The notes beneath the pieces are model-generated. The model ran no database searches, was not told the origin of the DNA, and saw only the letters and a list, made by a program, of their open reading frames with translations. Of a stretch of 54,282 nt of DNA, positions 1,501-52,501 are shown piece by piece (position 1 is the stretch's first letter; each line of letters starts with the position of its first letter). Source of the DNA: Deltaproteobacteria bacterium (GTDB taxonomy: Bacteria > Desulfobacterota > Syntrophia > Syntrophales > JACQWR01); contig JAPLJV010000025.1 in assembly GCA_026388415.1 (NCBI GenBank), positions 1 through 54,282 on the forward strand, given 5' to 3'. Made by a program: the position numbers and the translations under genes.

Positions 1501-1522
1501 CTTTAACGAGGAGTAATTGATA

Positions 1523-2911
1523 ATGAGAATTCTGTTAGTTGTTTATGATAATGATTCTTATACGCATTATTTCCCCCTTGGCCTTGCGTATATTGCAGCT
1601 GTTTTGAAAAAAGAGGGACATGAAATTTCTATATACAGCCAGGACAAGGAACATTATCCCGAAGAACATTTAACATGGTATTTGGATAATAACCATTTTG
1701 ATATGATTGGCATTGGCGTCATCGGTGGATATTATCAATACCGTAAATTGTTGAAACTGTCTGAAGCAATCAATATGTCGAAAGATCGCCCATTCTTCGT
1801 CATTGGTGGACATGGACCTTCACCGGAGCCTGAATATTTTCTCAATAAAACAGGTGCTGATGCGATTGTTATTGGTGAAGGTGAGATGACGATGCGTGAG
1901 TTAGTTAAAACTATTGAAGAGGGTAGACCCTTAAACAGAATATTGGGTATTGCATTTAGGGAAAACGAAAAGATAATAGTGAATGAACGCCGGCCGCTCA
2001 TCAAAGACATTGATACAATCCCTTGGCCTGCATATGAATTATTCCCTATTGATTATTATAGGCTCTTGCGTGCGCCTCATACGAGCCCGACGGATTTTTT
2101 GATGCCCCTTCTTTCCGGGCGTGGTTGTATATTTAAATGCAATTTCTGCTATCGCATGGATGAGGGTTTTAGGCCGCGTTCGGCTGAAGCTATTGTTGAT
2201 GAAATTAAATTTCTTCAGCAAAGTTACGGGATAACATATATTGAATTTGCAGATGAGCTTTTGATGTCTTCGGCAAAGCGAACTACAGAGCTTTGTGAAG
2301 CATTTCTAACGGCCAAGCTGAAATTTAAATGGTTCTGTAGTGGGCGCCTGAATTTTGCTAAACTTGCAGTTTTGAAGCTCATGAAACGTGCGGGTTGTGT
2401 TTTTATTAATTATGGAATTGAGGCAATGGACGATCAGATCCTGAAGAATATGAATAAGTATTTGACTACGGAAATGGTCATCAAGGGAATAGAAGCTACA
2501 TTGGATGCAGGAGTAAGTCCAGGTTTCAATATAATTTTTGGGAACATTGGCGAGAACAGGGATACTCTCAATAAGGGTGTAAATTTTCTCCTTCAATACG
2601 ATGACGGTGCACAGCGGCGTACCATTAGACCGGTTACACCTTATCCAGGTTCAGCTCTCTACTATTACGCGATCGAAAGGGGGCTACTAAGGGATTGTGA
2701 GGATTTTTATGAAAATAAACATTTAAACTCTGATCTGTTAAGTGTGAATTTCACAGAGCTAACGGATGATGAATTCCATATGGCATTACTCGAAGCAAAC
2801 ACGACTCTTTTGAGAAATTATTATCAAAAACAATTGGATTCAGTAGTACAGCAGGTTCAAGATTTGTATGTTAAAAAGGATTATAACTTTAGAGGCTTTC
2901 GGCAGATCTAA
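1523..2911 (+). CDS. B12-binding domain radical SAM protein
   Basis: About 462 residues. The N-terminal part (roughly residues 1-140) looks like a cobalamin-binding Rossmann domain, with GLAYIAAVLKKEGHEI and later GEGEMTMRELV. It is followed by a radical SAM core with the cluster motif CIFKCNFC (CX3CX2C) near residue 210 and a TIM-barrel-like remainder ending in a helical tail. Proteins of this architecture do methylations, ring rearrangements and other difficult chemistry; the substrate cannot be read from sequence. ATG 1523 is preferred over the in-frame TTG at 1517 because GAGGAG at 1508-1513 sits 9 bases before it. It lies in the same direction as the sugar genes that follow and may modify their product. 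Confidence 0.8.
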   Translation: MRILLVVYDNDSYTHYFPLGLAYIAAVLKKEGHEISIYSQDKEHYPEEHLTWYLDNNHFDMIGIGVIGGYYQYRKLLKLSEAINMSKDRPFFVIGGHGPSPEPEYFLNKTGADAIVIGEGEMTMRELVKTIEEGRPLNRILGIAFRENEKIIVNERRPLIKDIDTIPWPAYELFPIDYYRLLRAPHTSPTDFLMPLLSGRGCIFKCNFCYRMDEGFRPRSAEAIVDEIKFLQQSYGITYIEFADELLMSSAKRTTELCEAFLTAKLKFKWFCSGRLNFAKLAVLKLMKRAGCVFINYGIEAMDDQILKNMNKYLTTEMVIKGIEATLDAGVSPGFNIIFGNIGENRDTLNKGVNFLLQYDDGAQRRTIRPVTPYPGSALYYYAIERGLLRDCEDFYENKHLNSDLLSVNFTELTDDEFHMALLEANTTLLRNYYQKQLDSVVQQVQDLYVKKDYNFRGFRQI

Positions 2912-2943
2912 TATCTTAATGTAGAAACATTTATGGAGATAAG

Positions 2944-3438
2944 ATGAAGCGATTCGTGGATCTGACGCCCGCAGCGATTGACCTGATCGTCTATGACTTT
3001 GACGGCGTCATGACCGACAACCGGGTGCTGGTTCTTCAAAACGGCACTGAGGCGGTTTTCGCCAACCGCTCCGACGGCTTAGCCATAAGCAGAATGAAGG
3101 AAATGGGCATCAAACAGGTGATAATTTCAATGGAGACCAATCCTGTTGTCAAAGCCAGGGCTGAAAAAATAGGGATCCCGTGCCTTCAAGGTATAGGTGA
3201 TAAATTGGACGTCTTGAAGAAATATCTGGCTGAAAATAATATCGATAAGGATAACGTAGCCTTTATAGGCAATGAGATCAATGATATTGCCGCGATGAGC
3301 TATGTCGGGTTTCCCGTAGTGCCGGCGGACGCTTATCCGGAGGTGAAAAATGTCGCCAAGATGGTGCTAAAAACAAAAGGCGGGTATGGCGTTGTCAGAG
3401 AGTTCTTTGACCTTATTAAAAAAGTTAGAAAAATATGA
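2944..3438 (+). CDS. HAD phosphatase, KdsC-like (ulosonate-phosphate phosphatase type)
   Basis: A 164-residue HAD hydrolase without a cap domain. Motif I is YDFDGVMTDN (nucleophile and acid/base Asp), motif II is VIISMET, and motif IV is GNEINDIAAM. This size and layout match the KdsC family, which removes phosphate from Kdo-8-phosphate, and the phosphatase domain fused to some CMP-sialate synthetases. The stop overlaps the next ATG by four bases (3435-3438), so it is coupled to a cytidylyltransferase gene. With a NeuB-type synthase downstream, it probably dephosphorylates a 3-deoxy-ulosonic acid phosphate made by this operon. The exact substrate is inferred. Confidence 0.8.
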   Translation: MKRFVDLTPAAIDLIVYDFDGVMTDNRVLVLQNGTEAVFANRSDGLAISRMKEMGIKQVIISMETNPVVKARAEKIGIPCLQGIGDKLDVLKKYLAENNIDKDNVAFIGNEINDIAAMSYVGFPVVPADAYPEVKNVAKMVLKTKGGYGVVREFFDLIKKVRKI

Positions 3439-4202
3439 ATAAGGCGATCTTCATAACCGTCAGGACAGGCTCTACACGTCTTCCTGAAAAAGCGCTGCTA
3501 AAGATCAACGAAAGATCAACGATCGAGCTTGTGATTGATAGGGCGAAAAGATCTAAAAAGGCGCAGATTGTAGTGCTGTGCACTACAGAATCTAAGAAAG
3601 ATGATATTCTGTGTGAGATAGCGAAAAGAAATGGGATATTGTTCTTCCGGGGAAGTGCCGAAGACAAGCTGATGAGATGGAAGGGTGCTGCGGAAAAATA
3701 CGATGTTGAGTGCTTTGTGACCGCTGATGGCGATGATCTGTTGTGTGATCCAGAACTTGTAGATCTAGCTTTTGAACAGTTTGAAAGAAGGGGTGCCGAC
3801 TTCATAGAAGGCAAGAATGTGCCATGTGGGGGGTTTACTTACGGGATCAAGGTCGCTGCCTTGAATAAGGTTTGCGATATAAAGGACTCAGCAGAAACTG
3901 AGATGATGTGGGTTTATTTTCTGGATACTGGTCTATTCAAGACTGAAGTGCTTGAGAATATCCCTAAAGTGCTTCAGCGGCCGGAAATCAGGATGACCCT
4001 GGATTATAATGATGATTTAAAGTTCTTTAAGGTCATATTTGATCATTTTGCTGATAATCCGGCATTTACATTAAGGGATGTTGTAAAGTTCCTTGATGAA
4101 AATCCTGATGTTATTAAGATAAATCAGTATCTGCAGGAAAGATTCTTGGATAATCAGAGATCTAAGACCAAATTAGTCTTAAAGGAAGGGGTGAAACAAT
4201 AG
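3435..4202 (+). CDS. SpsF-like cytidylyltransferase
   Basis: A 255-residue nucleotidyltransferase of the SpsF/acylneuraminate cytidylyltransferase-like type. The N-terminus reads FITVRTGSTRLPEKAL, the nucleotide-binding loop of this fold, and VTADGDDLLCDPELVD carries the metal-binding Asp residues. It would activate an acidic sugar as its CMP derivative. The C-terminal MTLDYNDDLKFF matches the family end. It is coupled on both sides: ATGA overlap with the phosphatase gene, and its TAG (4200-4202) shares a base with the GTG of the aminotransferase gene. It is distinct from the more standard NeuA/LegF at 15260. Confidence 0.78.
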   Translation: MNKAIFITVRTGSTRLPEKALLKINERSTIELVIDRAKRSKKAQIVVLCTTESKKDDILCEIAKRNGILFFRGSAEDKLMRWKGAAEKYDVECFVTADGDDLLCDPELVDLAFEQFERRGADFIEGKNVPCGGFTYGIKVAALNKVCDIKDSAETEMMWVYFLDTGLFKTEVLENIPKVLQRPEIRMTLDYNDDLKFFKVIFDHFADNPAFTLRDVVKFLDENPDVIKINQYLQERFLDNQRSKTKLVLKEGVKQ

Positions 4203-5425
4203 TGGACGAAGGAATGAAGAATCCTACCAAATATCTTGGCAATGAATTGAAATATCTTGAAAAAGTTCTAAACTCAGAGAGTTGGTCAGCGACCGGCGGC
4301 AACTGGAACAATACTCTCGAACAAGAGTTTGCCATGAAGTTTGGAGTGAAATATGCTGTTGCTATGAATTCAGGAACTTCGGCAATACATGCTGCATTGG
4401 AAGCTGCCGGAGTTGGTCCGGGTGATGAGGTGATATCACCTGCCATAACTGTGATAATGAATTCAACCGCGACTATACACGCTAATGCGATACCTGTTTA
4501 CGCTGATGTTGACCCAAAAACTTTCAATATTGATCCAGAGGATGTGGCGAGGAAGATAACGAAAAAAACAAAGGCCATAATACCTGTAGCGCTATACGGC
4601 TTGCCGCCGGACCTTGATCCCATAATGGAGCTTGCAAAAAAACATAACATTGTTGTTATAGAAGATAATGCGGAATGTGTGATGAGCAAGTACAAGGGGC
4701 GGCTTGCGGGTACGATTGGCCAAATGGCGAGCTATAGTTTCGAAAATACGAAACATATATCATGCGGTGAAGGCGGCGTGATAATAACAAACAGCGAGAA
4801 ATATGCGGAATTGGCACGCAAGGTTGGCGGCCACGGATTTAAGAACCTTAAAGCAGATGAAGGAAGAGTGCGGCTTAATCAGGATGTGTTCCAAAACCCT
4901 AATTACAAGAGGCATGATGTTCTTGGCTGGAATTACAGGCTTCCGGAATTCAATGCCGCAATAGCGCTTGCCCAACTCGAAAGGATAGAAGATCTGATAG
5001 ACTTGAGGATTAAATCAGCGAATTTTTTCGTTGACGTTATGAAATCTTGCGATTACCTTATACCGCAGTTCGTTCCCGAATGTTATACGAATACCTATTA
5101 TACTTTAGGTGTCGTGTATGAGGGTGATAAAAGCATAGGCGTTTCATGGGAAGAGTTCAGAAAATCATATATAAATAATGGCGGGGACGGGATATACGGC
5201 GCTTGGAGCGTACCGTATCTCGAGCCGATGATCGTAGAAAGGCAGTTTGCGAAAAGATGCCCTTGGGTTTATGAGAACGTCAAATATGAAAAAGGATTGT
5301 GTCCGGTCGCGGAAGCAGTACAGCCCAAGATCATGCAGTTTAAGACTAATTACAGGGACACGAAGCTTGCCGAAATAAAAGCAGCGGTTCTTTTGAAGAC
5401 GATAAACGGATTCAGGAAAAAGTAA
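4202..5425 (+). CDS. DegT/DnrJ/EryC1/StrS-family sugar aminotransferase
   Basis: A 407-residue PLP-dependent sugar aminotransferase. MNSGTSAIHAALEAAGVGPGDEV near residue 60 is the cofactor phosphate-binding region. VVIEDNAE supplies the Asp that pairs with the PLP ring, and SFENTKHISCGEGG contains the Schiff-base Lys. HDVLGWNYRLPEFNAA is the usual later signature. The start is GTG 4202 with AAGGAAGGGG about 11 bases upstream; an in-frame ATG at 4214 is possible. It probably aminates a keto sugar or keto-ulosonate in the operon formed with the phosphatase, cytidylyltransferase and radical SAM genes. Substrate unknown. Confidence 0.85.
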   Translation: MDEGMKNPTKYLGNELKYLEKVLNSESWSATGGNWNNTLEQEFAMKFGVKYAVAMNSGTSAIHAALEAAGVGPGDEVISPAITVIMNSTATIHANAIPVYADVDPKTFNIDPEDVARKITKKTKAIIPVALYGLPPDLDPIMELAKKHNIVVIEDNAECVMSKYKGRLAGTIGQMASYSFENTKHISCGEGGVIITNSEKYAELARKVGGHGFKNLKADEGRVRLNQDVFQNPNYKRHDVLGWNYRLPEFNAAIALAQLERIEDLIDLRIKSANFFVDVMKSCDYLIPQFVPECYTNTYYTLGVVYEGDKSIGVSWEEFRKSYINNGGDGIYGAWSVPYLEPMIVERQFAKRCPWVYENVKYEKGLCPVAEAVQPKIMQFKTNYRDTKLAEIKAAVLLKTINGFRKK

Positions 5426-5449
5426 ATCCAGAATTGCGGAGCAGAAAGT

Positions 5450-6508
5450 ATGTTTGATATTGATTTTTATATGAAATCTTATGATTTCATGAAAGACGCT
5501 CAAGCTGGAAGAATAAAGGACAAACCCGCCGCTCTCCACTTTCTTGAGAGCTTGAGAAGCAAAGAACCCGTAGTTTACAACATCGAAACAACCAATGCCT
5601 GCAACATGAGATGCGAGATGTGCCCCAGGACTACGATGATGACGAGATCCATAAAAACGATGCACATCGATCTATTCAGCAAGATTGTTGATCAATTGAA
5701 ACCACACAAGAAGGAAAAATGGGAAGAATGGGAGAGATTCGTTCAGGAAAAATACGGCATAAAAACGACTGATATGAGCGAAAATCATTTTTTCCTGTAT
5801 GTCATACCAAAGGTCATCCAGCTTCATGGATATGGGGATCCACTGCTCGACATGAACATGGGAGCATACGTGAAAATGCTTGCGGATAAGGACTTCTATT
5901 CTTATTTCAGTTGCAACCCGGCGAACATTGACATAGAAAAAACGATGGAAATGTTCGAGAATGGATTGGACTATATAAAATACTCGATTGAAAGCGTGGA
6001 TGATGATCGCCATAAAGCAATTAGGGGGAATGCATCCAATTTTACCGAAAGTTATGTAAAAATATTAAAGATCCTGGACATTAAGAAAGAGAAAGGGTTC
6101 AAAACAGTAATTGTAATAACGATGCTCGATCTTAACAAGGAATGGCAAAAGGAGGATTTCTCGAAACTGAAGAAACTATTTGAAGGCAAGGATGTTTACA
6201 TATACATGAAAAGCGAGGATCAGCAGTGGTACCGTGAAGATTATCACGGCACTAATTCGGTTCACTGGTCGGAATTTTGCAAACACCCGTGGATGTCGAT
6301 GACTATCAAATCGAATGGTGAAGCGGCAATGTGTATGGAAGATTTTAACAACGAGATAGTGCTTGGCGATGCTGCAATAGAATCGTTGTATAATATTTGG
6401 AATGGCGCACTTTACGAGAAATTCCGAAAGGATCATGTAGCGGTGAGCAAGGGCATTAAGTGTGTTGAGCATTGCGACATGAAACTGATAGGCGAGCACC
6501 TTGAGTGA
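5450..6508 (+). CDS. Radical SAM/SPASM-like protein
   Basis: A 352-residue radical SAM enzyme. ETTNACNMRCEMCPRTTMM near residue 45 holds the CX3CX2C motif for the SAM-binding 4Fe-4S cluster. A C-terminal Cys-rich part (FCKHPWMSM, AAMCMEDF, KCVEHCDM) looks like a SPASM-type auxiliary cluster site. Such enzymes act as sugar dehydrogenases or epimerases (BtrN-like) or as peptide modifiers. Here the neighbours are sugar genes, so oxidation or epimerisation of a sugar intermediate is the best guess. It follows the aminotransferase by 24 bases and precedes the NeuB-like synthase by 51 bases. Confidence 0.8.
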   Translation: MFDIDFYMKSYDFMKDAQAGRIKDKPAALHFLESLRSKEPVVYNIETTNACNMRCEMCPRTTMMTRSIKTMHIDLFSKIVDQLKPHKKEKWEEWERFVQEKYGIKTTDMSENHFFLYVIPKVIQLHGYGDPLLDMNMGAYVKMLADKDFYSYFSCNPANIDIEKTMEMFENGLDYIKYSIESVDDDRHKAIRGNASNFTESYVKILKILDIKKEKGFKTVIVITMLDLNKEWQKEDFSKLKKLFEGKDVYIYMKSEDQQWYREDYHGTNSVHWSEFCKHPWMSMTIKSNGEAAMCMEDFNNEIVLGDAAIESLYNIWNGALYEKFRKDHVAVSKGIKCVEHCDMKLIGEHLE

Positions 6509-6559
6509 ATCTGATACCTTCTGTTGTTCGTTATCAGATTATGAAATGGAAGCGGAAAA

Positions 6560-7438
6560 ATGACTAAGAAAAAACTCGATTTTTGCGGACACAGTGTTGG
6601 CGATGATGAGCCGGTCTTCATGATCGCAGAGATTGGCTTGAATCACAACGGGGAATTAGGCATAGCAAAGAAGCTGATCGATGCGGCTTTCGCGTGCAAC
6701 TGGCATTGTGTCAAGTTTCAAAAGAGAACCCCGGAAATCTGCGTTCCTGACCACCAGAAAACTGTGATCAGGGATACTCCATGGGGGAAAATGACTTATC
6801 TTGAATACAGACACAGAGTCGAGTTTGGCGAGAAGGAATACTCATATATCAACCAGTATTGCCGAGAGAAGCCGATTTTTTGGACAACTTCGGTATGGGA
6901 CCTGCCGAGTCTGCAATTCATTCTCCGTTACAACGTGCCTTTCATCAAGATACCGTCCGCGAAGCTTGTTGAAACAGATCTTTTACGTGCTGCCGCAAAA
7001 ACTGGCAAGCCTGTGGTTTTGTCAACAGGAATGAGCACGGTCGAGGAAATTGATGAGGCTGTTGCGGTGTTGAACGAATTTGCACGCGGTAATTTCGTAT
7101 TGATGCATACAAATTCTACATATCCAACCCCACCTGAAGAATTGAACTTGTTGACGATAAAATTTCTTAAAGAAAGATATGATTGTGTGGTTGGTTATAG
7201 CGGACATGAATATGACTTGGAGCCCTCTGTGATAGCGGTTACGCTTGGCGCCAGGATAATCGAGAGGCATATCACGCTGGATCACAACATGTGGGGGTCG
7301 GATCAGTTTGCAAGCTTGGAAGTTCATGCCATGGACCTCCTCCACAGGAGATTGAAACAGGTTAGCGTCTGCTTGGGAGATGGTGTGAAGCGGTTGACAG
7401 AAAACGAAATTCAGATTCGAAAGAAACTGAGAGGGTAA
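6560..7438 (+). CDS. NeuB-family ulosonate synthase without SAF domain
   Basis: A 292-residue PEP-condensing synthase of the sialic acid synthase family. AEIGLNHNGELGIAKKLIDA at the N-terminus, VKFQKR, STGMSTVEEI and NSTYPTPPEELNL are NeuB barrel motifs, and GYSGHE plus IIERHITLDHNMWGSDQ form the metal and PEP site. Family members such as LegI at 10322 are about 330-350 residues and end in a SAF (antifreeze-like) domain that caps the active site of the partner subunit. This protein stops at RIRKK just after the barrel, so that cap is absent. Shorter NeuB homologues do exist, so this need not be a truncation. It is the last gene of the 2944-7438 block. Confidence 0.85.
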   Translation: MTKKKLDFCGHSVGDDEPVFMIAEIGLNHNGELGIAKKLIDAAFACNWHCVKFQKRTPEICVPDHQKTVIRDTPWGKMTYLEYRHRVEFGEKEYSYINQYCREKPIFWTTSVWDLPSLQFILRYNVPFIKIPSAKLVETDLLRAAAKTGKPVVLSTGMSTVEEIDEAVAVLNEFARGNFVLMHTNSTYPTPPEELNLLTIKFLKERYDCVVGYSGHEYDLEPSVIAVTLGARIIERHITLDHNMWGSDQFASLEVHAMDLLHRRLKQVSVCLGDGVKRLTENEIQIRKKLRG

Positions 7439-7605: not shown

Positions 7606-8604
7606 ATGGATTTAACAAACCAAAAAATATTAGTCACCGGCGCCGATGGATTTATTGGCAGCCATCTGGTGGAGGGTTTACTGGACAAAGGGTGTCAGGT
7701 ACGGGCTTTTGTGTTCTATAACTCTTTTAATAATTGGGGTTGGCTGGATACGTTTCCCAAAGATAAACTGGATAAGATCGATGTGTTTGCAGGGGATATC
7801 CGCGATCCCAATGGGGTGAGAAAGGCCATGCAAGGGATGGACATGGTCTTTCATCTGGCCGCACTTATTGCCATTCCGTTCAGTTACCACTCCCCGGACA
7901 GCTACGTGGATACCAACATCAAAGGCACATTGAATGTGCTGCAGGCGGCGCGCGATACCGGTTGCAAGCGGGTGCTGATCACATCAACGTCAGAAGTTTA
8001 TGGAACGGCGCAATATGTTCCCATTGATGAGCGGCATCCCTTGCAGGGGCAATCACCCTATTCCGCCACCAAAATCGCGGCAGACCGGATAGCGGAAAGC
8101 TTTTATCGCAGTTTCAATACCCCGGTGACCATTGTCAGGCCTTTTAATACGTATGGGCCACGTCAATCGGCCCGTGCCGTCATCCCCACCGTCATTACCC
8201 AGTTGCTGGCTGGCGCAACAGAAATCAAACTGGGCAGCATTCATCCAACCCGCGACTTTAATTATGTCAAGGATACCGTGGCCGGTTTTATTGCGATTGC
8301 AGAGACACAAGCCACGATTGGAGAAGAGATAAACATTGCCTCGCAACAGGAGATTTCCATCGGGCAGCTTGCCCGCGAGATCATCGCCCAGATCAACCCA
8401 ACGGCCACGATTGTCTCTGATGATATTCGTATGCGTCCTGAAGAAAGTGAAGTGGAACGGCTCCTGGGCAGTAACGAAAAGATTTGCAGGTTAACAAGGT
8501 GGCAGCCGGCATATACGCTGAAGCAGGGAATCCGGGAAACCATCGCATGGTTCAGGGACGCAGAAAATCTGCGGCGCTATAAATGGGATGTCTATAATGT
8601 TTGA
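7606..8604 (+). CDS. legB: LegB-type NDP-GlcNAc 4,6-dehydratase
   Basis: A 332-residue extended short-chain dehydrogenase. VTGADGFIGSHLVEGL binds NAD, STSEVYGTAQ provides Ser/Thr, and SPYSATKIAADR carries the YxxxK pair. RPFNTYGPRQSARAVIPTVI is characteristic of LegB/PtmB-type dehydratases, which convert GDP-GlcNAc to the 4-keto-6-deoxy sugar as the first step toward legionaminic acid. The gene opens a block in which legC overlaps its end by 17 bases. The 167 bases before it (7439-7605) contain no gene I can support and no strong Shine-Dalgarno, so this looks like a junction between two sugar modules. Confidence 0.85.
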   Translation: MDLTNQKILVTGADGFIGSHLVEGLLDKGCQVRAFVFYNSFNNWGWLDTFPKDKLDKIDVFAGDIRDPNGVRKAMQGMDMVFHLAALIAIPFSYHSPDSYVDTNIKGTLNVLQAARDTGCKRVLITSTSEVYGTAQYVPIDERHPLQGQSPYSATKIAADRIAESFYRSFNTPVTIVRPFNTYGPRQSARAVIPTVITQLLAGATEIKLGSIHPTRDFNYVKDTVAGFIAIAETQATIGEEINIASQQEISIGQLAREIIAQINPTATIVSDDIRMRPEESEVERLLGSNEKICRLTRWQPAYTLKQGIRETIAWFRDAENLRRYKWDVYNV

Positions 8605-9739
8605 AAAGATCGTAAGCTTCATTAAATCCCTTTATCCGACGGAGAATCCAGTCCCCCTCCATGCACCGCGATTTTTAGGGAATGAAAAAAAATATCTCAT
8701 TGATTGTATTGATACAACCTATGTGTCCTATGTGGGACAATATGTCATTCGTTTTGAAGATGAAGTTCGGCAGCTCACCGGAGCAAAGTATGTAATCGCT
8801 GTCTCCACTGGAACCGCAGCGCTGCATGTAGCCCTCCTTTTGGCCGAAGTAGCGCCCGGAGATGAGGTGATAACCCAGCCTTTGACTTTTATCGCCACAG
8901 CCAATGCCATTTCCTACTGTAGCGCGCAGCCGGTATTTGTGGATGTGGAAAGAGTAACCCTGGGACTTGATCCGGAAAAACTGAATGATTTTCTAACAAA
9001 TAACGGCATTCTGAATTCAGATGGACGGTGTTACAATAAAACAACCGGCAGAAAGATCGCCGCATGCTTGCCGATGCACACCTTTGGTCATCCAGTGCGG
9101 ATCAACGAGATTATTGAAATCTGTCAGAAATACCATATTCCGGTCATTGAGGATGCCGCCGAGGCGCTGGGAAGTTTTTACAAGGGGCAGCATACCGGCA
9201 CATTTGGGGATATCGGTATTTTAAGCTTTAACGGCAACAAACCCGTGACCACAGGCGGCGGCGGCATGATCATCACAGACGATGAAACCCTTGCGACAAA
9301 GGCCAAGCACCTGACCACAACGGCCAAAAAGCCACACCCGTGGGAATTTATTCATGATGCTGTTGGCTATAATTATCGTATGCCGAATATCAATGCCGCC
9401 GTGGGCTGTGCCCAGATGGAATGCTTTGCCGGGGCTTTAGAAAACAAGCGTGCTACAGCGCAGATGTATAACCAGTTTTTTCAGGAGATCGGCATATCAT
9501 TTATCGTAGAACCTGCTCACGCCCGGTCTAACTATTGGCTTAATACCATTGTGCTAAAAGATAGACAGGAACGGGATGAGTTTCTTGCCTATGCCACGGG
9601 GAAAGGCACCCAAGCACGGCCCGTTTGGACACTTATGTCCAACCTTCCCATGTATCGCCATTGTCAGTGCACATCACTTGATAACGCCCAATGGCTGGAA
9701 GACCGGCTGGTCAATATCCCCAGCAGTGTGCGGATATGA
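8588..9739 (+). CDS. legC: LegC-type PLP-dependent aminotransferase
   Basis: A 383-residue DegT-type aminotransferase. VSTGTAALHVALLLAEVAPG is the PLP-phosphate site, VIEDAAEALGSF gives the ring-pairing Asp, SFNGNKPVTTGGGG contains the Schiff-base Lys, and HDAVGYNYRMPNINAA follows. Members next to LegB aminate C4 of the 4-keto-6-deoxy-GlcNAc nucleotide. The start at 8588 overlaps legB; an in-frame ATG at 8597 is equally possible. TGA 9737-9739 overlaps the ATG of legH. Order and overlaps mirror legionaminic acid operons. Confidence 0.85.
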   Translation: MSIMFEKIVSFIKSLYPTENPVPLHAPRFLGNEKKYLIDCIDTTYVSYVGQYVIRFEDEVRQLTGAKYVIAVSTGTAALHVALLLAEVAPGDEVITQPLTFIATANAISYCSAQPVFVDVERVTLGLDPEKLNDFLTNNGILNSDGRCYNKTTGRKIAACLPMHTFGHPVRINEIIEICQKYHIPVIEDAAEALGSFYKGQHTGTFGDIGILSFNGNKPVTTGGGGMIITDDETLATKAKHLTTTAKKPHPWEFIHDAVGYNYRMPNINAAVGCAQMECFAGALENKRATAQMYNQFFQEIGISFIVEPAHARSNYWLNTIVLKDRQERDEFLAYATGKGTQARPVWTLMSNLPMYRHCQCTSLDNAQWLEDRLVNIPSSVRI

Positions 9740-10329
9740 AAGAAGAAATCATCCTGATCGGTGGCGGCGGCCATTGCAAGTCATGTATTGACGTGATCGA
9801 ACAGGAAGGCCGCTTTACCATTGCCGGGATTGTGGATGTGCCTGAAAAAAAACAGCACAACGTTCTGGATTATCCCGTGATCGGCTCAGATGCCGATTTA
9901 GCGGAATTGATCAAGTCTTACCCCAATGTACTGATCACGCTGGGGCAGATCAAATCCCCAACCCGCCGCATAGAACTTCTTAATGACTTGATACAGATGG
10001 GCGCACGTTTTCCCGTGATTCAATCCCCATTGGCTTATGTCTCCCCCCATGCCCAAGTTGGCGAAGGAACCATCGTGATGCACCATGCCCTAATCAATGC
10101 AGAGGCGAAGGTTGGCAGAAATTGCATTATCAATACCAAGGCCCTTGTAGAACATGATGCCGTCATTGAAGATCACTGCCATATTTCAACGGGTGCGGTC
10201 GTTAATGGAGGGGTAACCATCGGTAGTGGCTCTTTTTTCGGCAGTGGCGCAGTATCAAAGGAATACACATCAATACCTGCTAACAGTTTTATCAAGGCCA
10301 ACAGTTTAATACCCAAGAACGATGAATAA
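9736..10329 (+). CDS. legH: LegH/NeuD-type sugar N- or O-acetyltransferase
   Basis: A 197-residue acetyltransferase. The N-terminal IILIGGGGHCKSCIDVIE is the substrate-binding half seen in PglD/NeuD/LegH proteins. The C-terminal half is a left-handed beta-helix built of hexapeptide repeats (VSPHAQVGEGTIV, then AKVGRNCIINTKALVEHDAVI), with a catalytic His in VEHDAVIEDHCHIS. In the legionaminic route it acetylates the 4-amino group installed by LegC. The start at ATG 9736 is set by the conserved N-terminus; a longer frame from 9691 only reads back into legC. The stop overlaps legI by eight bases. Confidence 0.82.
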   Translation: MKEEIILIGGGGHCKSCIDVIEQEGRFTIAGIVDVPEKKQHNVLDYPVIGSDADLAELIKSYPNVLITLGQIKSPTRRIELLNDLIQMGARFPVIQSPLAYVSPHAQVGEGTIVMHHALINAEAKVGRNCIINTKALVEHDAVIEDHCHISTGAVVNGGVTIGSGSFFGSGAVSKEYTSIPANSFIKANSLIPKNDE

Positions 10330-11320
10330 AACCTTCATCATTGCCGAAGCCGGCGTGAACCATAACGGCAGCCTGGAAATGGCGTTTCAACTCATTGATG
10401 TGGCCGTTGCCGCTGGGGCGGATGCTGTCAAATTTCAGACGTTCAAGGCCGAGAAAGTCATTGCCGTGAATGCACCCAAAGCCAGCTACCAGAAGGAAAC
10501 CACCGACTCAGATGAATCCCAATTAGAGATGGTCAAAAAGCTGGAGCTGGATGAAACGGCGCACACCAAGCTACAACATTATTGCAAACACAAGGGCATC
10601 CAATTTCTCTCAACGCCCTTTGATCTGGAAAGCATTGATCTGCTGAACCGTCTGGGGTTGGAAATCTTCAAGATTCCTTCAGGGGAGATCACCAACCTGC
10701 CCTATCTTAGAAAACTTGGGGCTTTGAAAAAACGGCTGATCCTGTCCACCGGTATGGCCGATCTGGGTGAAATCGAAGATGCCTTGGATGTACTTACCGA
10801 ATCCGGAACGCCAATGGAAAACATTACCGTTCTTCACTGCAACACCGAATACCCAACCCCGTTTGAGGATGTCAATCTCTTGGCTATGCTCACAATCAAA
10901 AACGCCTTCGGAGTCGAGGTTGGCTATTCTGATCACACACCCGGCATCGAAGTTCCGATTGCCGCCGTTGCTCTTGGTGCAACCATAATAGAAAAACATT
11001 TTACCCTGGATCGAAACCTTCCGGGGCCCGACCATAAAGCCAGCCTAGAGCCCGATGAGCTGAAGGCGATGGTGCAGGCAATTCGAAACATTGAAAAAGC
11101 TCTCGGCGATGGTATCAAATACCCCAGCCCGAGTGAAGTAAAAAACAAGCCCATTGCGCGAAAGTCGCTGGTGGCGACCCAACCAATCAAGACGGGCGAA
11201 CTGTTCAGTGCTGATAACAACACAGCCAAACGCCCCGGCGCCGGCATCTCTCCCATGCGTTGGAATGAAGTTTTGGGGCAGGTAGCACAAAAAGATTATG
11301 AAAAGGATGATCTGATATGA
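10322..11320 (+). CDS. legI: N,N'-diacetyllegionaminic acid synthase
   Basis: A 332-residue NeuB-family synthase with both domains. The TIM barrel carries IAEAGVNHNGSLEMAFQLID, VKFQTFK, STGMADLGEIEDAL, NTEYPTPFEDVNL and IEKHFTLDRNLPGPDHKASL. A C-terminal SAF domain begins near residue 270 (RKSLVATQPIKTGE, then KRPGAGISPMRW). It condenses 2,4-diacetamido-2,4,6-trideoxymannose with phosphoenolpyruvate. Neighbouring legB, legC, legH and legG support legionaminic rather than N-acetylneuraminic acid. It is followed by a toxin-antitoxin pair rather than directly by legG. Confidence 0.88.
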   Translation: MNKTFIIAEAGVNHNGSLEMAFQLIDVAVAAGADAVKFQTFKAEKVIAVNAPKASYQKETTDSDESQLEMVKKLELDETAHTKLQHYCKHKGIQFLSTPFDLESIDLLNRLGLEIFKIPSGEITNLPYLRKLGALKKRLILSTGMADLGEIEDALDVLTESGTPMENITVLHCNTEYPTPFEDVNLLAMLTIKNAFGVEVGYSDHTPGIEVPIAAVALGATIIEKHFTLDRNLPGPDHKASLEPDELKAMVQAIRNIEKALGDGIKYPSPSEVKNKPIARKSLVATQPIKTGELFSADNNTAKRPGAGISPMRWNEVLGQVAQKDYEKDDLI

Positions 11321-11377
11321 CAAGGGCCTTAACTAAAAAAGGTTTGATAAATTAAGGTAATAAGGAGGAAGATTGCT

Positions 11378-11722
11378 ATGACTATCACTTGCTTGATTAA
11401 GAAAGAAGGTAGTCAATATGCTTCATTGTGCGTGGAATTGGATGTGGCTTCCTGCGGCAAAAGTAAGATGGAAGCCCTTGACGGTTTGAAGCGTGCGATT
11501 GAGACATATATTGAATACATGGTTTCCGAAGGCCGTCAGAAAGAGATCAGTAGGCCTGTTCCCATGGATGAATTGAAAGGATTCCTTTTCCCGGAGGATG
11601 AATCATCGGAAAAGACGTTTCGCGCCATTCCTCTGAATTATCAGTATGCTTATAAATCTCACGAGTCAGGATGTGGCGTGGATACTGAATCAAGTTGGTA
11701 TCGTGCTCAAAAGGCGAAGTAA
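11378..11722 (+). CDS. HicB-like antitoxin
   Basis: A 114-residue protein with a HicB-type partial RNase H-like fold: TCLIKKEGSQYASLCVELDVASCGKSKMEALDGLKRAIETYI. It is preceded by a strong ribosome site (AAGGAGGAAG, 11361-11370). The last 25 or so residues (from about YAYKSHESG) are in a region that also encodes the start of the next protein in another frame, and they do not look conserved. It would neutralise the HicA-like partner. The pair sits inside the legionaminic acid operon, between legI and legG, in the same direction. Confidence 0.7.
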   Translation: MTITCLIKKEGSQYASLCVELDVASCGKSKMEALDGLKRAIETYIEYMVSEGRQKEISRPVPMDELKGFLFPEDESSEKTFRAIPLNYQYAYKSHESGCGVDTESSWYRAQKAK

Positions 11723-11876
11723 GGAGGATGTTTTTGAAGGTGCTTATGCAGGGCGGATAAGGGTCGTGATTGTTCCCCGGAATAAGCGAAGCATCCCGCA
11801 GGGAACTTTAAGCTCAATTTGGAGACAGTCAGGGATCAACAAAGAAATTGCTGAAAATCTGTGGGCAAAAAAATGA
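11646..11876 (+). CDS. HicA-like toxin, no evident catalytic His
   Basis: A 76-residue protein overlapping the HicB-like gene by 77 bases. Its middle and end (VVIVPRNKRSIPQGTLSSIWRQSGI) match the second half of HicA mRNA interferases, where a hydrophobic strand and GTLRSILRQAG helix are usual. The His found in the canonical GSHH segment is missing; the equivalent stretch reads RSKEDVFEGAYAGRI. It may therefore be inactive, use another residue, or belong to a divergent subfamily. Its TGA (11874-11876) overlaps the ATG of legG, so legG translation may be coupled to it. Confidence 0.6.
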   Translation: MLINLTSQDVAWILNQVGIVLKRRSKEDVFEGAYAGRIRVVIVPRNKRSIPQGTLSSIWRQSGINKEIAENLWAKK

Positions 11877-13036
11877 GAAAAATATGCATCTACACCTCCA
11901 GCCGGGCGGAGTATGGCTTGCTACGCGGGGTGATTCAAGAAATTCAGGCTACTGAAGTCCTTGAGTTGCAGATTCTTGCCAGTGGCATGCACCTGTCCCC
12001 TGAGTTTGGAATGACGATCCAGGAAATCCGGGCGGACGGTTTTGAACCTGATGAAACCGTAGAAATACTCCTGTCCAGTGACACCCCAACCGCCATCTGC
12101 AAATCCATGGGACTCGCCATGATCGGCTACGGCGAGGCGCTCCAAAGACTGAAGCCCAATATGATAGTGGTACTTGGCGACCGATTTGAAACATTTTGCA
12201 TGGCTGCCGCGGCCCTGGTTTGCCGGGTCCCTCTTGCCCATATTCATGGAGGCGAGACCACGGAAGGCGCTATTGACGAGGCTTTTCGTCATTCCATCAC
12301 GAAAATGTCGCACCTGCATTTTGCCAGTTGCGAAGCATACCGTCAGCGTATCATCCAGATGGGGGAGGCTCCGGACCGTGTGTTCAACGTCGGTGCCCTT
12401 GGTGTTGAAAACATCCGGTGTATGTCACTCATGGAACGTAGCGAACTGTCCGAATCTATCGGATTCATCCTTGAAAAGCCCTATTTCCTCGTGACCTTTC
12501 ACCCGGTGACCTTGGAAAAGAACACCTCTGAAGGACAATTTCAGTCACTACTGGATACCCTGGATTCATTCCCCGAATACAATGTGATCTTTACAAAGGC
12601 CAATGCAGACACGGACGGACGTATAATCAACCGCCTGATTGACAAATATGCAGAAAGGCAGCCCGAACGCTGTCTTGCGGCGGCCTCACTGGGTGCACAC
12701 CGGTATCTGTCAGCCATGAAGTATGCAACCGCTGTTATTGGCAACAGTTCCAGCGGTATCGTGGAGGCGCCATCTTATAAAATTCCTACAGTCAATATCG
12801 GCGACAGACAGAAAGGACGCATACAAGCAGCCAGCACATTGAATTGCTCACCAGACGCCAATGCAATCCGGCAAACAATAGACCGTGCGTTATCTCCTGC
12901 CTTTCAGGAGAGCCTTTCCGGCATATCAAATCCCTACGACCGAACGGGCACCTGTGTAACAATTGTCGGATTGCTTGAAAAGATAGATATCTTGGGTATT
13001 ACTAAAAAAACCTTCCATGATGTTAGGTTGTCCTGA
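11873..13036 (+). CDS. legG: UDP/GDP-sugar hydrolysing 2-epimerase, LegG/NeuC type
   Basis: A 387-residue hydrolysing sugar-nucleotide 2-epimerase. YTSSRAEYGLLRGVI at the N-terminus, VLGDRFETFCMAAAA, HIHGGETTEGAIDEAFRHSI and GNSSSGIVEAPSYKIPTVNIGDRQKGR are NeuC/LegG signatures, including the acidic and His residues of the active site. It inverts C2 and releases the nucleotide to give the free manno-configured sugar used by LegI. ATG 11873 is chosen because conservation begins there; an upstream in-frame GTG at 11861 adds only residues encoded within the HicA-like gene. Confidence 0.87.
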   Translation: MRKICIYTSSRAEYGLLRGVIQEIQATEVLELQILASGMHLSPEFGMTIQEIRADGFEPDETVEILLSSDTPTAICKSMGLAMIGYGEALQRLKPNMIVVLGDRFETFCMAAAALVCRVPLAHIHGGETTEGAIDEAFRHSITKMSHLHFASCEAYRQRIIQMGEAPDRVFNVGALGVENIRCMSLMERSELSESIGFILEKPYFLVTFHPVTLEKNTSEGQFQSLLDTLDSFPEYNVIFTKANADTDGRIINRLIDKYAERQPERCLAAASLGAHRYLSAMKYATAVIGNSSSGIVEAPSYKIPTVNIGDRQKGRIQAASTLNCSPDANAIRQTIDRALSPAFQESLSGISNPYDRTGTCVTIVGLLEKIDILGITKKTFHDVRLS

Positions 13037-13094
13037 CCACGAAAATAGCTTCAAATGGGGAAATGATGTTTAAGAGCGTAATCGAGATAAGACC

Positions 13095-14120
13095 ATGAAA
13101 AATTATTATATCAGTCCAGACGCCAGCCTTATCGAATGTATGCGAAACATGGACATCACCGGTGCCGGTATTGCGCTTGCGGTTGACACTGAATTCAGGC
13201 TGATAGGGACAATATCTGACGGCGATGTCCGGAAGGCTTTGGTGAAAGGTTGCTCCCTGGATAGTTCTGTATCCCCGCACATAAATCGAAGCTGCTTTTA
13301 TGTGCTGCCAAGTGTACCCAGAGCCGAAGTATTGGATGTCATGCAGGCCAGAAGATTTGGGCAGGTTCCAATCGTTGATGAACAGGGCAAAGTGATTGGG
13401 CTTCATCTTCTGCACGATATCCTGGGGCGTGTCGCACTGCCAAATTGGGCGATTGTGATGGCAGGCGGACAAGGGGTAAGACTGCGGCCATTGACTGAAA
13501 ATATACCCAAACCAATGATTAGGGTTGCAGGCAGGCCTATACTGGAACGGATCGTCCTGCACCTTGTCAGTTATGGAATCCGTCGAATCTTTCTTTCAGT
13601 CAACCATTTGGCACATGTGATTGAGGACTATTTTAAAGATGGTTCAAAATATGGTGCAAAGATTGAATACCTTCACGAGGATGAACCTCTTGGCTCCGGC
13701 GGCGCCATTTCCCTTTTACCGAAGATCCCTGAGCAAGCTTTGCTGGTCATGAACGGAGACTTGATTGTTGATACCAATTTTACCGAAATGATCCAATTTC
13801 ACAGTCAAAACGATTTTTACGCTACAATGGGGATACATCCCTATTTGCACCAAGTGCCCTATGGATGTATCGAAATACAAAATAATAGATTGGCAGGCTT
13901 GGAGGAAAAACCTATTCTTGAAAAAATGGTGAATGCGGGAATCTACGTGCTGTCACCACAGGCTATATCCGCCATTCCAAAGAATACCTATTTTCCCATT
14001 ACGACGCTGTTCGAAGATGCCATCAAGAATAATCTGGTCTGTGGAACCTTTCCCGTAGAAAAGGAGTGGCTTGATATTGGGTCCCCCCAGCAACTACGGC
14101 AGGCGCGGGGTGAATTGTGA
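13095..14120 (+). CDS. ptmE: PtmE-like sugar-1-phosphate guanylyltransferase with CBS pair
   Basis: A 341-residue two-part protein. Residues 1 to about 115 form a CBS-domain pair (LIGTISDGDVRKALVKG, later GQVPIVDEQGKVIGLHLLHDIL). From about residue 120 a nucleotidyltransferase domain begins with VMAGGQGVRLRPLTENIPKPM, then VMNGDLIVDTNF with the metal-binding Asp. This architecture is that of PtmE, which makes GDP-glucosamine or GDP-GlcNAc for the legionaminic pathway of Campylobacter. The CBS pair may bind an adenosyl ligand and regulate activity. Its presence indicates that the pathway here runs on GDP-linked, not UDP-linked, intermediates. Confidence 0.82.
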   Translation: MKNYYISPDASLIECMRNMDITGAGIALAVDTEFRLIGTISDGDVRKALVKGCSLDSSVSPHINRSCFYVLPSVPRAEVLDVMQARRFGQVPIVDEQGKVIGLHLLHDILGRVALPNWAIVMAGGQGVRLRPLTENIPKPMIRVAGRPILERIVLHLVSYGIRRIFLSVNHLAHVIEDYFKDGSKYGAKIEYLHEDEPLGSGGAISLLPKIPEQALLVMNGDLIVDTNFTEMIQFHSQNDFYATMGIHPYLHQVPYGCIEIQNNRLAGLEEKPILEKMVNAGIYVLSPQAISAIPKNTYFPITTLFEDAIKNNLVCGTFPVEKEWLDIGSPQQLRQARGEL

Positions 14121-14197
14121 TGAAGTGTCTCCAAATGAATTTCTGTCAAGGCGATTGTTCCGAGAATTCTCAACAATAAACTCTAAAAGGAACATTA

Positions 14198-15226
14198 ATG
14201 ATGAATTTCTTAATTATCGGTTTAGGATCTATGGGAAAACGCAGGGTACGCTGTTTCAAGGCCCTTGGTATTACGACAGTTGCAGGCTTTGACCAGCGTG
14301 AGGACAGGCGTTTAGAAAGCAAAGAAAAATATGGGATTCAAACATTTGCCGATATTGAACAGGCAATCCGAGAATTCAAGCCTACCGCTTTTATCATTTC
14401 CGTCCCGCCGGATGCTCATCATGTTTACATGAAAATGGCCGCAGAAAAAGGATTACACTTTTTTGTTGAAGCCAGTGTCGTGGATACTGACATGAATTTG
14501 ATAAAAGAGCTGGTGAAGGCAAAGAATATCGTTGCAGCGCCTTCAGCTACCTTGACTTTCCACCCGGCAATCAAACAGATCATGGCCATCATGAGGTCCG
14601 GCGATTTGGGAACGATATCCAACATCATTTTCCACTCCGGTCAGTATCTTCCCGATTGGCACACCTACGAGAAGGTCAGCGATTATTACGTCTCCAATCC
14701 GGCAACTGGCGGAGCGCGGGAAATTGTGCCCTTTGAGTTGTCTTGGCTGACGCACGTCCTGGGCTTTCCCCAGCGCGTGTGCGGCAACGTGCGGAAAACA
14801 ATCAACATCGAAGGTGCGGAAAAAATAGATGACACCTATAATTTCCTCCTCGATTATGAAAAATGTCTGGCAACGATCACGATTGACGTCGTATCCCGCA
14901 ACGCCACGCGGAGGCTCTTGGTCAACGGCGATCAAAAACAATTACTCTGGGATTGGAACCAAAATAATATTCAGATTTACGATCCGAAAAGCGGACAATG
15001 GCAGACCATCGAGTATCAGATGATGAGTGCTGAGGCGGGATATAATCCGAACATCGGCGAAAATATGTACATTGATGAGTTGAAGGCGTTCATCAATGCC
15101 GCGGAAGGCAAGGCTCCATTCATTAATACGATGGAAAACGATCACAATGTGTTGAAGTTGCTGTATAAGGTTGAGGAATCGGATAAAATTGGACGTTATC
15201 TTGAATTTGAAAAATGGCAATCATAA
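14198..15226 (+). CDS. Gfo/Idh/MocA-family oxidoreductase
   Basis: A 342-residue NAD(P)-dependent oxidoreductase. MNFLIIGLGSMGKRRVRC is the N-terminal Rossmann motif, FIISVPPDAHHVYMKMAAEKGLHFFVEA the second half, and the C-terminal alpha/beta domain contains the usual binding face. Sugar or cyclitol oxidoreduction is typical of the family. It lies between ptmE and legF. AAAGGA lies eight bases before the double ATG at 14198/14201. It may be a side-chain modifier of legionaminic acid or act on the glucosamine precursor; the sequence does not decide. Confidence 0.78.
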   Translation: MMNFLIIGLGSMGKRRVRCFKALGITTVAGFDQREDRRLESKEKYGIQTFADIEQAIREFKPTAFIISVPPDAHHVYMKMAAEKGLHFFVEASVVDTDMNLIKELVKAKNIVAAPSATLTFHPAIKQIMAIMRSGDLGTISNIIFHSGQYLPDWHTYEKVSDYYVSNPATGGAREIVPFELSWLTHVLGFPQRVCGNVRKTINIEGAEKIDDTYNFLLDYEKCLATITIDVVSRNATRRLLVNGDQKQLLWDWNQNNIQIYDPKSGQWQTIEYQMMSAEAGYNPNIGENMYIDELKAFINAAEGKAPFINTMENDHNVLKLLYKVEESDKIGRYLEFEKWQS

Positions 15227-15259
15227 CAATTGCATGGGTGTAAATCGTGAAGGAATCTA

Positions 15260-15991
15260 ATGATTAATAATAAAAGAGTCCTCGTCATAGTGCCTGCAAG
15301 GGGCGGTTCCAAAGGTCTTCCCGGAAAGAACATACTAACCCTATGTGGCAAGCCTTTAGTGGCGTGGCCGATAGCAACGGCAAAAGCATCAAAATATATA
15401 GATAAGATCGTGGTCTCAACAGATGATCTCGAAATAGCAAAAATAGCTGAAAAGTATGGAGCTTCAGTTCCATTTATCAGGCCTGCAGCGTTAGCTACCG
15501 ATACTGCCACAACATTTTCGGTAATCGAACATACATTAGTTTTTTTAAAAAATGCTGGAGAGTCATTCGATTATATTGTTCTCAGAGAACCTACGTCGCC
15601 TCTCACAGAATCAGACGACATCGATGCTGCATTAGAAATCTTGGAGTCGAAAAGAGCAATAGCCGATTCAATTGTGGGTGTCAGCAAAGTTGAAGCAGCA
15701 CACCCCGCTTTTGATGTTGTAATCAAAGAAACTGGCACTATTAAACCGTTCATGTACCCTGATTTTTCTCAGGCAGTTAGACGCCAGGACATCGCGGATA
15801 TTTATTTTTTTGAAGGCTCTCTTTACATATCGGATACTGAAACATTACTTGAAAAAAGCAGCTTTTATCATGACAGAACGCTTCCTTACATTGTGCCCCG
15901 TTATAAGTCTTTGGAAATCGATGAACAGATTGATTTCCTATTTGCAGAAACAATTTTGAATAATATTGAGAAAATTAATAATAATGCATGA
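15260..15991 (+). CDS. legF: CMP-legionaminic acid synthetase (NeuA/LegF type)
   Basis: A 243-residue CMP-acylneuraminate cytidylyltransferase. VIVPARGGSKGLPGKNIL is the nucleotide-binding loop, VVSTDDLEIAKIAEKYGA and LREPTSPLTESDDIDAAL follow, and RRQDIADIYFFEGSLYI matches the substrate pocket region. It activates the nonulosonic acid as CMP-sugar for a transferase. It is the second cytidylyltransferase in the window (compare 3435). With legB, C, H, I, G and ptmE it completes the known route to CMP-legionaminic acid. Confidence 0.85.
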   Translation: MINNKRVLVIVPARGGSKGLPGKNILTLCGKPLVAWPIATAKASKYIDKIVVSTDDLEIAKIAEKYGASVPFIRPAALATDTATTFSVIEHTLVFLKNAGESFDYIVLREPTSPLTESDDIDAALEILESKRAIADSIVGVSKVEAAHPAFDVVIKETGTIKPFMYPDFSQAVRRQDIADIYFFEGSLYISDTETLLEKSSFYHDRTLPYIVPRYKSLEIDEQIDFLFAETILNNIEKINNNA

Positions 15992-16007
15992 TTCTGGTGG
16001 AGAGAAC

Positions 16008-49447: not shown

Positions 49448-49468
49448 ACACATAGAGGAGGGCAAATC

Positions 49469-50668: not shown

Positions 50669-50718
50669 GGTGTGTTAGCGAAGCCCATTCTGCGGGCTCA
50701 GGACAGGCGTAACGCACC
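50669..50718. repeat. REP-like inverted repeat between kdnA and hldD
   Basis: GGTGTGTTAGCG (50669-50680) pairs with GCGTAACGCACC (50707-50718), with one mismatch or bulge region, immediately after the kdnA stop codon. The intervening GC-rich loop contains AGCCC/GGGCT. No T tract follows, so it is not a standard terminator. Confidence 0.65.
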
Positions 50719-50746
50719 GAACCACAGCGGGAGAGATACCTCACAC

Positions 50747-51718: not shown

Positions 51719-51745
51719 TTTCCCAGCATCGAGGTGTATATTCCA

Positions 51746-52501
51746 GTGAGCGTCGTCTGTATCATCCCCTCACGATACCGTTCCAGCCGGTTTAACGGCA
51801 AACCCTTGGCCGATCTCTGCGGCCGGCCCATGATCCAGCACGTCTATGAGCGCGTCATGCAGGCCAAGACGCTATCCTATGCCGCCGTGGCAACTGATGA
51901 TGAACGGATCTTCGCTGCGGTGGAAAAGTTCGGCGGCCGGGCGGTCATGACCTCGCCTCGGCACCGTTCCGGCACCGACCGGATTGCCGAGGCGGTAGCC
52001 GGTCTGAATCTGGCGGCAAACGACATCGTGGTAAATATCCAGGGCGATCAGCCCCTCTTTGAACCCGCCCAGATTGATGAAGTGGCGGCGCCGCTCTTAG
52101 CCGATCCCTCCCTCCCGATGGCGACGCTGATCTATAAAATCGTGCGTGAGGAAGAAATCTTCCACCCCCATGCCGTCAAGGTCGTCTTTGACAGCGACTA
52201 TTTTGCCCTCTATTTTTCCCGCGCCACGATCCCCTATGTGCGAGACAGAGGCATGAAGACCGACTACTACAAGCATCACGGCATTTACGCCTACCGGAAA
52301 GCTTTTCTCGATACCTTCACTAATCTACCCGAGGGCAAGCTCGAAAAGCTGGAGGCCCTGGAACAGCTCCGGGCGCTTGAATATGGCTATCGCATCAAGA
52401 TTGTGATAACGGAGCATGACTCCGTGGAAGTCGACACCCCTGAGGAATTGGCGCGCGTGCGCGACATAATTATGGGAAAAGATCAGGAAAGGAACCTATG
52501 A
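51746..52501 (+). CDS. kdsB: CMP-Kdo (or CMP-Kdo8N) synthetase
   Basis: A 251-residue cytidylyltransferase. CIIPSRYRSSRFNGKPLADL binds CTP, VATDDERIFAAVEKFGG, VNIQGDQPLFEPAQID and FSRATIPYVRD are KdsB motifs, and KHHGIYAYRKAFLDTF follows. GTG 51746 has GAGG about 11 bases upstream; an earlier GTG at 51734 overlaps that site. In Shewanella the KdsB beside KdnA/KdnB prefers Kdo8N; whether that holds here cannot be read directly. The stop overlaps the next ATG by four bases. Confidence 0.88.
   Translation: MSVVCIIPSRYRSSRFNGKPLADLCGRPMIQHVYERVMQAKTLSYAAVATDDERIFAAVEKFGGRAVMTSPRHRSGTDRIAEAVAGLNLAANDIVVNIQGDQPLFEPAQIDEVAAPLLADPSLPMATLIYKIVREEEIFHPHAVKVVFDSDYFALYFSRATIPYVRDRGMKTDYYKHHGIYAYRKAFLDTFTNLPEGKLEKLEALEQLRALEYGYRIKIVITEHDSVEVDTPEELARVRDIIMGKDQERNL

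Follow-up and report, generated by a model that had tools for sequence, protein, structure and literature searches.

The window, by which we mean the whole stretch of DNA analysed here, is an entire contig (JAPLJV010000025.1, 54,282 bases) of the 2.79-Mb genome, distributed over 66 contigs, of a Deltaproteobacteria bacterium (GCA_026388415.1). Near its beginning, at positions 2944-7438, five complete open reading frames (ORFs), all on the forward strand and overlapping or at most 51 bases apart, encode a KdsC-like phosphatase, an SpsF-like cytidylyltransferase, a DegT aminotransferase, a radical S-adenosylmethionine (SAM) enzyme and a NeuB-family synthase (Table 1). Pfam and NCBIfam back each of these assignments (HAD/KdsC, CTP_transf_3, DegT, Radical_SAM with SPASM, and NeuB without the SAF domain). 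The phosphatase and SpsF-like genes overlap by 4 bases, and the DegT gene starts at a GTG (4202) or, alternatively, at an ATG (4214). A first-pass annotation, made from the letters of the DNA, had singled out this group, and coordinates, strand and family profiles agree with it on the packing of the five genes behind a B12-binding radical SAM gene, on the synthase of 292 residues devoid of SAF, and on the presence of a phosphatase in a set that has neither a 2-epimerase nor a 4,6-dehydratase. The limits that it drew hold for the five genes, yet do not take in the B12 radical SAM gene, homologues of which recur beside the cassette elsewhere (49-76% identical in loci that we number L028, L032, L035, L039, L040 and L072; 33% in a seventh), so that 1517-7438 describes the unit better. 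Our reading of this cassette is that it would make a cytidine monophosphate (CMP)-activated amino-ulosonic acid of the Kdn type (Kdn, 3-deoxy-D-glycero-D-galacto-non-2-ulosonic acid), a proposal to which we give a probability of about 0.5.

Table 1. Genes of the cassette and its upstream partner (PLP, pyridoxal phosphate; aa, amino acids)
Feature	Position	Strand	Basis
B12-binding radical SAM protein, 464 aa, optional cassette partner	1517-2911	+	Pfam B12-binding and Radical_SAM
KdsC-family HAD phosphatase, predicted ulosonate-phosphate phosphatase	2944-3438	+	TIGR01670 above cut-off; Glu/Lys pair
SpsF-like CTP_transf_3 cytidylyltransferase, predicted CMP-ulosonate synthetase	3435-4202	+	PF02348
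DegT-family PLP aminotransferase, predicted to aminate a ketone	4202-5425	+	PF01041
Radical SAM enzyme with one four-Cys auxiliary cluster (BtrN/twitch type), predicted dehydrogenase of an ulosonic acid hydroxyl	5450-6508	+	Invariant Cys, profile, fold
NeuB-family synthase without SAF, 292 aa, predicted Kdn-9-phosphate-type synthase	6560-7438	+	PF03102 only

The five genes are a real, intact and widely shared conserved cassette. When 84,980 genomes were scanned for the radical SAM protein, 46 true relatives came out, to which a sample of the phylum added one, making 47 loci that could be compared; their neighbouring genes were labelled by family according to the best tblastn match, and tblastn was used for some GC-rich loci. 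The relatives are 59-88% identical to the protein of the window, apart from two near 40%, and their hosts belong to Nitrospirota, Thermodesulfobacteriota, Omnitrophota, WOR-1, Saganbacteria, Chloroflexota, Bacillota (Lachnospiraceae and Oscillospiraceae) and archaeal bins, although, most of these genomes being metagenome bins, individual placements may be wrong. The genes for NeuB, the phosphatase and the CMP-transferase are all three found no further than 6 kb from the radical SAM gene in 34 of the 47 loci, and in 17 of the 25 that have 6 kb on both sides. Because the trio accompanies the radical SAM gene so often, the grouping, which the first-pass annotation had suggested looking for in other genomes, is not a matter of chance, and the conservation of the same three genes supports the CMP-activated ulosonic acid that had been proposed as their product. 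The radical SAM gene stands alone in four Lachnospiraceae genomes, all of which have a SAF-less NeuB (55-57% identical) elsewhere, adjoining guanosine diphosphate (GDP)-mannose genes. Within 395 genomes of the window's phylum, four have the radical SAM gene and 26 the SAF-less NeuB; as most genomes with this type of synthase do without the radical enzyme, the latter appears as a decoration of a larger class. A comparison of the radical SAM gene with plasmid records gave no match.

Synthesis of Kdn proceeds from mannose-6-phosphate and phosphoenolpyruvate (PEP) to Kdn-9-phosphate, then to Kdn and CMP-Kdn, by means of a NeuB-type synthase, a KdsC-type phosphatase and a CMP-transferase, and it needs no 2-epimerase or dehydratase. 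The core of the cassette, with these same three activities, is probably a Kdn-like route, that is, a pathway of a kind already known. The view that the set matches no known route had overlooked this pathway and fails for the core, since a phosphatase, in the absence of 2-epimerase and 4,6-dehydratase, is precisely what the Kdn route calls for. Daughtry et al. are said to have found, in 2013, that a Glu/Lys pair, which we take to be E56/K67 of BT1713, tells Kdn-9-phosphate phosphatases from those of the 8-phosphate of Kdo (3-deoxy-D-manno-oct-2-ulosonic acid), and that the former are often fused to the transferase. The window has this pair, as do 36 of the 37 radical SAM loci with a phosphatase, the 37th having Asp/Lys; one solved variant of BT1713 has Ala at the Glu position. 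At these positions the housekeeping KdsC of the host, which is a separate gene (G000:C4:104956), has Arg/Asp, and the solved KdsC 3mn1 has Arg/Ser. Fusions of phosphatase and CMP-transferase are found in most Chloroflexota cassettes; at other loci a LegF-type transferase, in many cases a fusion with the phosphatase, replaces the SpsF-like enzyme, the best solved match of which is the cytidylyltransferase 6oew, and two bare cassettes (L124 and L131) consist only of NeuB and a fused CMP-transferase/phosphatase. Together, the Glu/Lys signature and the frequent fusions point to the Kdn route. In the phosphatases of four loci (L034, L093, L132 and L133) the Arg aligned to BT1713 R64 is replaced by Tyr, Trp, Phe or Ile, and these enzymes possibly act on a different ulosonate.

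The synthase itself keeps its catalytic residues, E24, K52, K130, S155, H216, E235 and H237 being conserved at 100% in 50 SAF-less homologues, and SAF is present, according to Pfam, in a second NeuB of the window (10322-11320). SAF-less enzymes also display invariant or near-invariant basic residues of their own, K55, R56 and R71, which are candidates for holding a phosphate. The cassette protein lies below the equivalog cut-offs of the neuraminic/legionaminic/pseudaminic-type synthases (TIGR03569, 237.6 against 399.65; TIGR03586, 182.5 against 340.25). NanE, the source of N-acetylmannosamine, was not found in the genome, nor was an epimerase in the cassette.

The radical SAM enzyme carries the CxxxCxxC cysteines (C51, C55 and C58) and four auxiliary cysteines (C277, C295, C338 and C342), all of them invariant in 48 homologues. 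BtrN is its best match in a profile search of solved structures (E 5e-14), with C277 and C295 falling on BtrN cysteines and a CxEDFN motif common to both proteins. An AlphaFold 2 model (predicted local distance difference test score, pLDDT, 94.8) again places BtrN (4m7t, E 3e-11) at the first rank of the Foldseek matches, followed by SuiB, DesII, SkfB and anSME, the template modelling (TM) scores of 0.46/0.64 with BtrN denoting a distant relation. The auxiliary cysteines number only four, against the seven of two-cluster SPASM maturases, although the Pfam SPASM profile scores 44.6 bits. BtrN is a two-electron alcohol oxidase that converts a ring hydroxyl to a ketone, with its auxiliary cluster as the likely electron acceptor (PMC9012708). 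Judging from cysteines, profile and predicted fold, the cassette protein is best read as a BtrN-type dehydrogenase that would turn one hydroxyl of a Kdn-type acid into a ketone. A radical step in the making of the sugar, as originally suggested, is very probable, whereas the accompanying idea of an altered skeleton has become doubtful, a BtrN-like enzyme oxidizing a hydroxyl without any carbon rearrangement; skeleton or C-methyl changes could come solely from the B12 radical SAM protein, an optional partner. The parallel with BtrN, the 2-deoxy-scyllo-inosamine dehydrogenase of the butirosin pathway, goes further: BtrN, whose auxiliary [4Fe-4S] cluster of the four-cysteine type is predicted here too, teams with a DegT aminotransferase (BtrR/BtrS) on a polyhydroxylated ring, and the cassette likewise has a DegT. 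It differs in that the cassette enzyme is about 15% identical to BtrN, has a longer N-terminus, and lies among ulosonic acid, not aminocyclitol, genes.

A DegT, class-III aminotransferase, Gfo/Idh or short-chain dehydrogenase/reductase (SDR) gene is found near the radical SAM gene in 42 of the 47 loci. The DegT copies are 66-89% identical to that of the window in nine loci and 54% in a tenth; Lachnospiraceae bacterium AC3007 (L051), perhaps a cultured host, has a cassette of the DegT type. Along the radical SAM tree the label of the partner switches ten times or more, and radical enzymes as close as 88% identity differ in this respect, the window and L029 having DegT and L028 having Gfo. The oxidizer may also change: L122 combines a 75%-identical DegT, a phosphatase, an 84%-identical NeuB and a CMP-transferase with an SDR and has no radical SAM gene; L132 has the layout of L034 and L037 except for an SDR in the place of the radical enzyme; and in L125, L126 and L135 a class-III aminotransferase is paired with an SDR, Pfam finding both in one fused ORF of 742 aa in L135. 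Partner switching and SDR substitution are what would be expected if oxidizer and finisher were exchangeable modules around a ketone intermediate, and they suggest such an arrangement. Perosamine synthases and BtrR outrank KdnA (5k8b) as solved matches of the cassette DegT, which has 39% identity with the product of the KdnA-like gene at 49469 (228 aa aligned) and 32% with LegC (284 aa aligned). A DegT relative in genome G329 (49-51% identical) was set aside, its context being different: it has LegB and a less closely related NeuB (30%) as neighbours.

For the pathway that we propose, we infer the aldose, the carbon that is oxidized, the order of the steps and the use by DegT of the product of the radical enzyme. 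The SAF-less NeuB would join PEP to a phosphorylated aldose, most likely mannose-6-phosphate, making an ulosonate-9-phosphate from which the KdsC-type phosphatase would strip the phosphate. The BtrN-like enzyme would then remove hydrogen at one of the carbinol carbons, with C4, C5, C7, C8 and C9 as candidates, from an acid that would be free or perhaps already linked to CMP; the auxiliary cluster would accept the second electron, and the resulting ketone would be transaminated by DegT to an amine before the SpsF-like enzyme adds CMP. In other hosts all steps but the transamination by DegT would be kept, the finisher being either a class-III aminotransferase, which would again yield an amine, or a Gfo/Idh or SDR enzyme re-reducing the ketone to an epimer; some cassettes would have an SDR stand in for the radical enzyme, and the B12 radical SAM protein may bring an optional further change, for instance a dehydration as by AprD4 or a methylation. 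We think it quite unlikely, if worth stating, that it is C5 of Kdn that the radical enzyme oxidizes and DegT aminates, which would lead to neuraminic acid, or to one of its positional isomers, by radical chemistry and with no need of an epimerase; such a route would have arisen in anaerobes and passed between bacteria and archaea and, more broadly, would make of the cassette an instance of a radical SAM dehydrogenase swapping with SDRs to diversify nonulosonic acids.

Several observations weigh against the formation of an amino-Kdn-type acid along these lines. The phosphatase does not pass the curated Kdn-9-phosphate phosphatase model NF058599 (101 bits for a cut-off of 180); the C-terminal domain of type-I mannose-6-phosphate isomerase is absent from the genome, where type II was not searched; ten loci hold a synthase nearer the SAF-bearing LegI type, which in some of them replaces the SAF-less one; and Chloroflexota cassettes carry an SDR and the radical enzyme together, a reason for dropping the idea of a strict replacement of one by the other and claiming only a partial interchange. 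To these must be added a cysteine outside the cluster motifs, C155, which does not vary among the 48 homologues and may be the sign of an epimerase. Such an enzyme would invert a carbinol carbon, one hydrogen being abstracted and another supplied by C155, while DegT acted on another carbon or another sugar; the radical SAM epimerase EpeE is among the fold matches, and the Gfo and SDR partners could serve another step. BtrN, however, stands clearly above EpeE by fold, EpeE does not figure among the profile matches, and epimerization would leave the ketone- or aldehyde-using partner of 42 loci unexplained, which makes it unlikely. DegT and the radical enzyme might also come into play ahead of the synthase, their substrate being an aldose that resembles mannose-6-phosphate, so that NeuB would extend an amino-aldose phosphate, the outcome being once more an amino-ulosonic acid. 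Their genes do precede that of NeuB, and the basic residues K55, R56 and R71 suit a phosphorylated substrate; yet the bare cassettes L124 and L131, and those with other finishers, have the same types of synthase and phosphatase, as if the core were indifferent to its decoration, and we consider this order of events rather unlikely.

The remaining alternatives take the radical enzyme, or the whole cassette, away from a pathway of its own. A complete legionaminic acid operon (7606-15991) directly follows the cassette on the same strand, and a class-III aminotransferase gene at 15966 encodes a protein about 60% identical to those that adjoin the radical SAM gene in L049, L063 and L072, so that the cassette could be taken as part of this operon, merely editing legionaminic acid. 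This seems highly doubtful, because LegB, LegC, LegG, LegI and a CMP-transferase are all encoded, complete, in the operon itself, because the cassette is usually found in loci without Leg genes, and because its synthase, phosphatase and CMP-transferase would then be redundant. That the radical SAM enzyme matures a peptide or protein, and owes its place among sugar genes to operon convenience, is very improbable indeed: its weak NCBIfam matches are mostly maturases, and SuiB and SkfB come near the top of its fold matches, but the sugar enzymes BtrN and DesII are among the best folds as well, the auxiliary cysteines are those of BtrN in number, linkage with the same sugar genes extends over many phyla, and the cassette showed no evident gene for a small precursor peptide, though no systematic search was made.

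Setting the amino-Kdn-type pathway against characterized systems shows where it departs from them. The Kdn system of Bacteroides thetaiotaomicron (Kdn-9-phosphate synthase, BT1713 and CMP-Kdn synthetase) is built on the same gene trio, without epimerase or dehydratase and with Glu/Lys in its phosphatase; the cassette differs by a phosphatase below the NF058599 cut-off and by its additional radical SAM and DegT genes, and its synthase is without SAF, a domain for which the Bacteroides synthase was not compared. With the legionaminic, pseudaminic and neuraminic pathways it has in common a NeuB-family synthase and a CMP-transferase, but it lacks SAF, 2-epimerase and 4,6-dehydratase and has a phosphatase. 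In the 8-amino-Kdo (Kdo8N) pathway, KdnB and KdnA oxidize and then aminate Kdo, and the cassette is predicted to follow the same logic, oxidation of a hydroxyl of an ulosonic acid preceding amination by DegT, with a radical SAM enzyme instead of a metal/NAD (nicotinamide adenine dinucleotide) dehydrogenase and a synthase of the nine-carbon type, while a separate KdnA/KdnB-like set already exists on the contig (48290-50668).

A search of the literature at our disposal gave no report linking radical SAM chemistry to nonulosonic acid biosynthesis or to NeuB. The core being known, it is the radical SAM branch grafted on it that is apparently undescribed. The cassette, which involves an oxygen-sensitive radical enzyme, could be the sign of a bacterial surface sugar not yet described; as it is widespread in uncultured anaerobes and in gut Lachnospiraceae, it probably makes surface sugars that surveys of lipopolysaccharides and sialic acids have missed. 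Our reading also offers predictions for the unassigned SAF-less NeuB class and, if true, would add a new family of enzymes by which ulosonic acids receive amines or inverted hydroxyls.

The rest of the contig is rich in genes for acidic sugars. The legionaminic acid operon comprises LegB, LegC, LegG, LegH, LegI with SAF, a NeuC-type epimerase, a CBS-nucleotidyltransferase, a Gfo/Idh protein and a CMP-transferase, with LegB, LegC, the NeuC-type epimerase and NeuB exceeding curated cut-offs; the organism is likely to produce at least two nonulosonic acids. The class-III aminotransferase gene at 15966-17321, of the glutamate-1-semialdehyde-aminotransferase-like kind, may supply a second amination; its three close relatives mentioned above are from Lachnospiraceae. 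Further on, 48290-50668 holds an iron alcohol dehydrogenase and a DegT (gene at 49469) whose full-length best solved match is KdnA (5k8b, E 4.5e-109); with HldD, also within 48290-52501, and KdsB at 51734, this has the look of a gene set for 8-amino-Kdo.

Upstream of the cassette, the B12 radical SAM protein stays far below the cut-offs of all 22 NCBIfam families that it matches, and is assigned to no named family among them. Its model (pLDDT 86.9) has AprD4, OxsB and MgmA as nearest folds in Foldseek (OxsB, E 6e-21; AprD4, TM 0.74/0.76). The ORF at 268-1500 (410 aa) has no Pfam or NCBIfam match; since L128 has a 29%-identical relative next to its NeuB and CMP-transferase genes, the protein may act as a glycosyltransferase on what the cassette produces.

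Other cassettes show unusual gene arrangements. A thiamine-diphosphate enzyme of 600 aa (acetolactate-synthase type) accompanies Gfo/Idh and either the radical SAM gene or an SDR in L030, L034, L037 and L132; NeuB and the phosphatase are also there in the last three, and absent from L030, which is truncated. Adjoining the radical SAM gene of L037, an ORF of 499 aa (L037:8509-10008) fuses a Gfo/Idh oxidoreductase to a KdsC-type phosphatase. The SAF-less synthase of L039 is replaced by a CBS-NeuB-SAF-AP_endonuc_2 (xylose-isomerase-like) fusion of 751 aa (L039:6267-8522). In a Nitrospina bin, finally, a GmhA-like SIS isomerase adjoins the SAF-less NeuB, phosphatase and CMP-transferase (L093:4322-7828), the 41%-identical radical SAM gene of this bin being located elsewhere, and this neighbour hints at a heptose-derived (C10) ulosonic acid.

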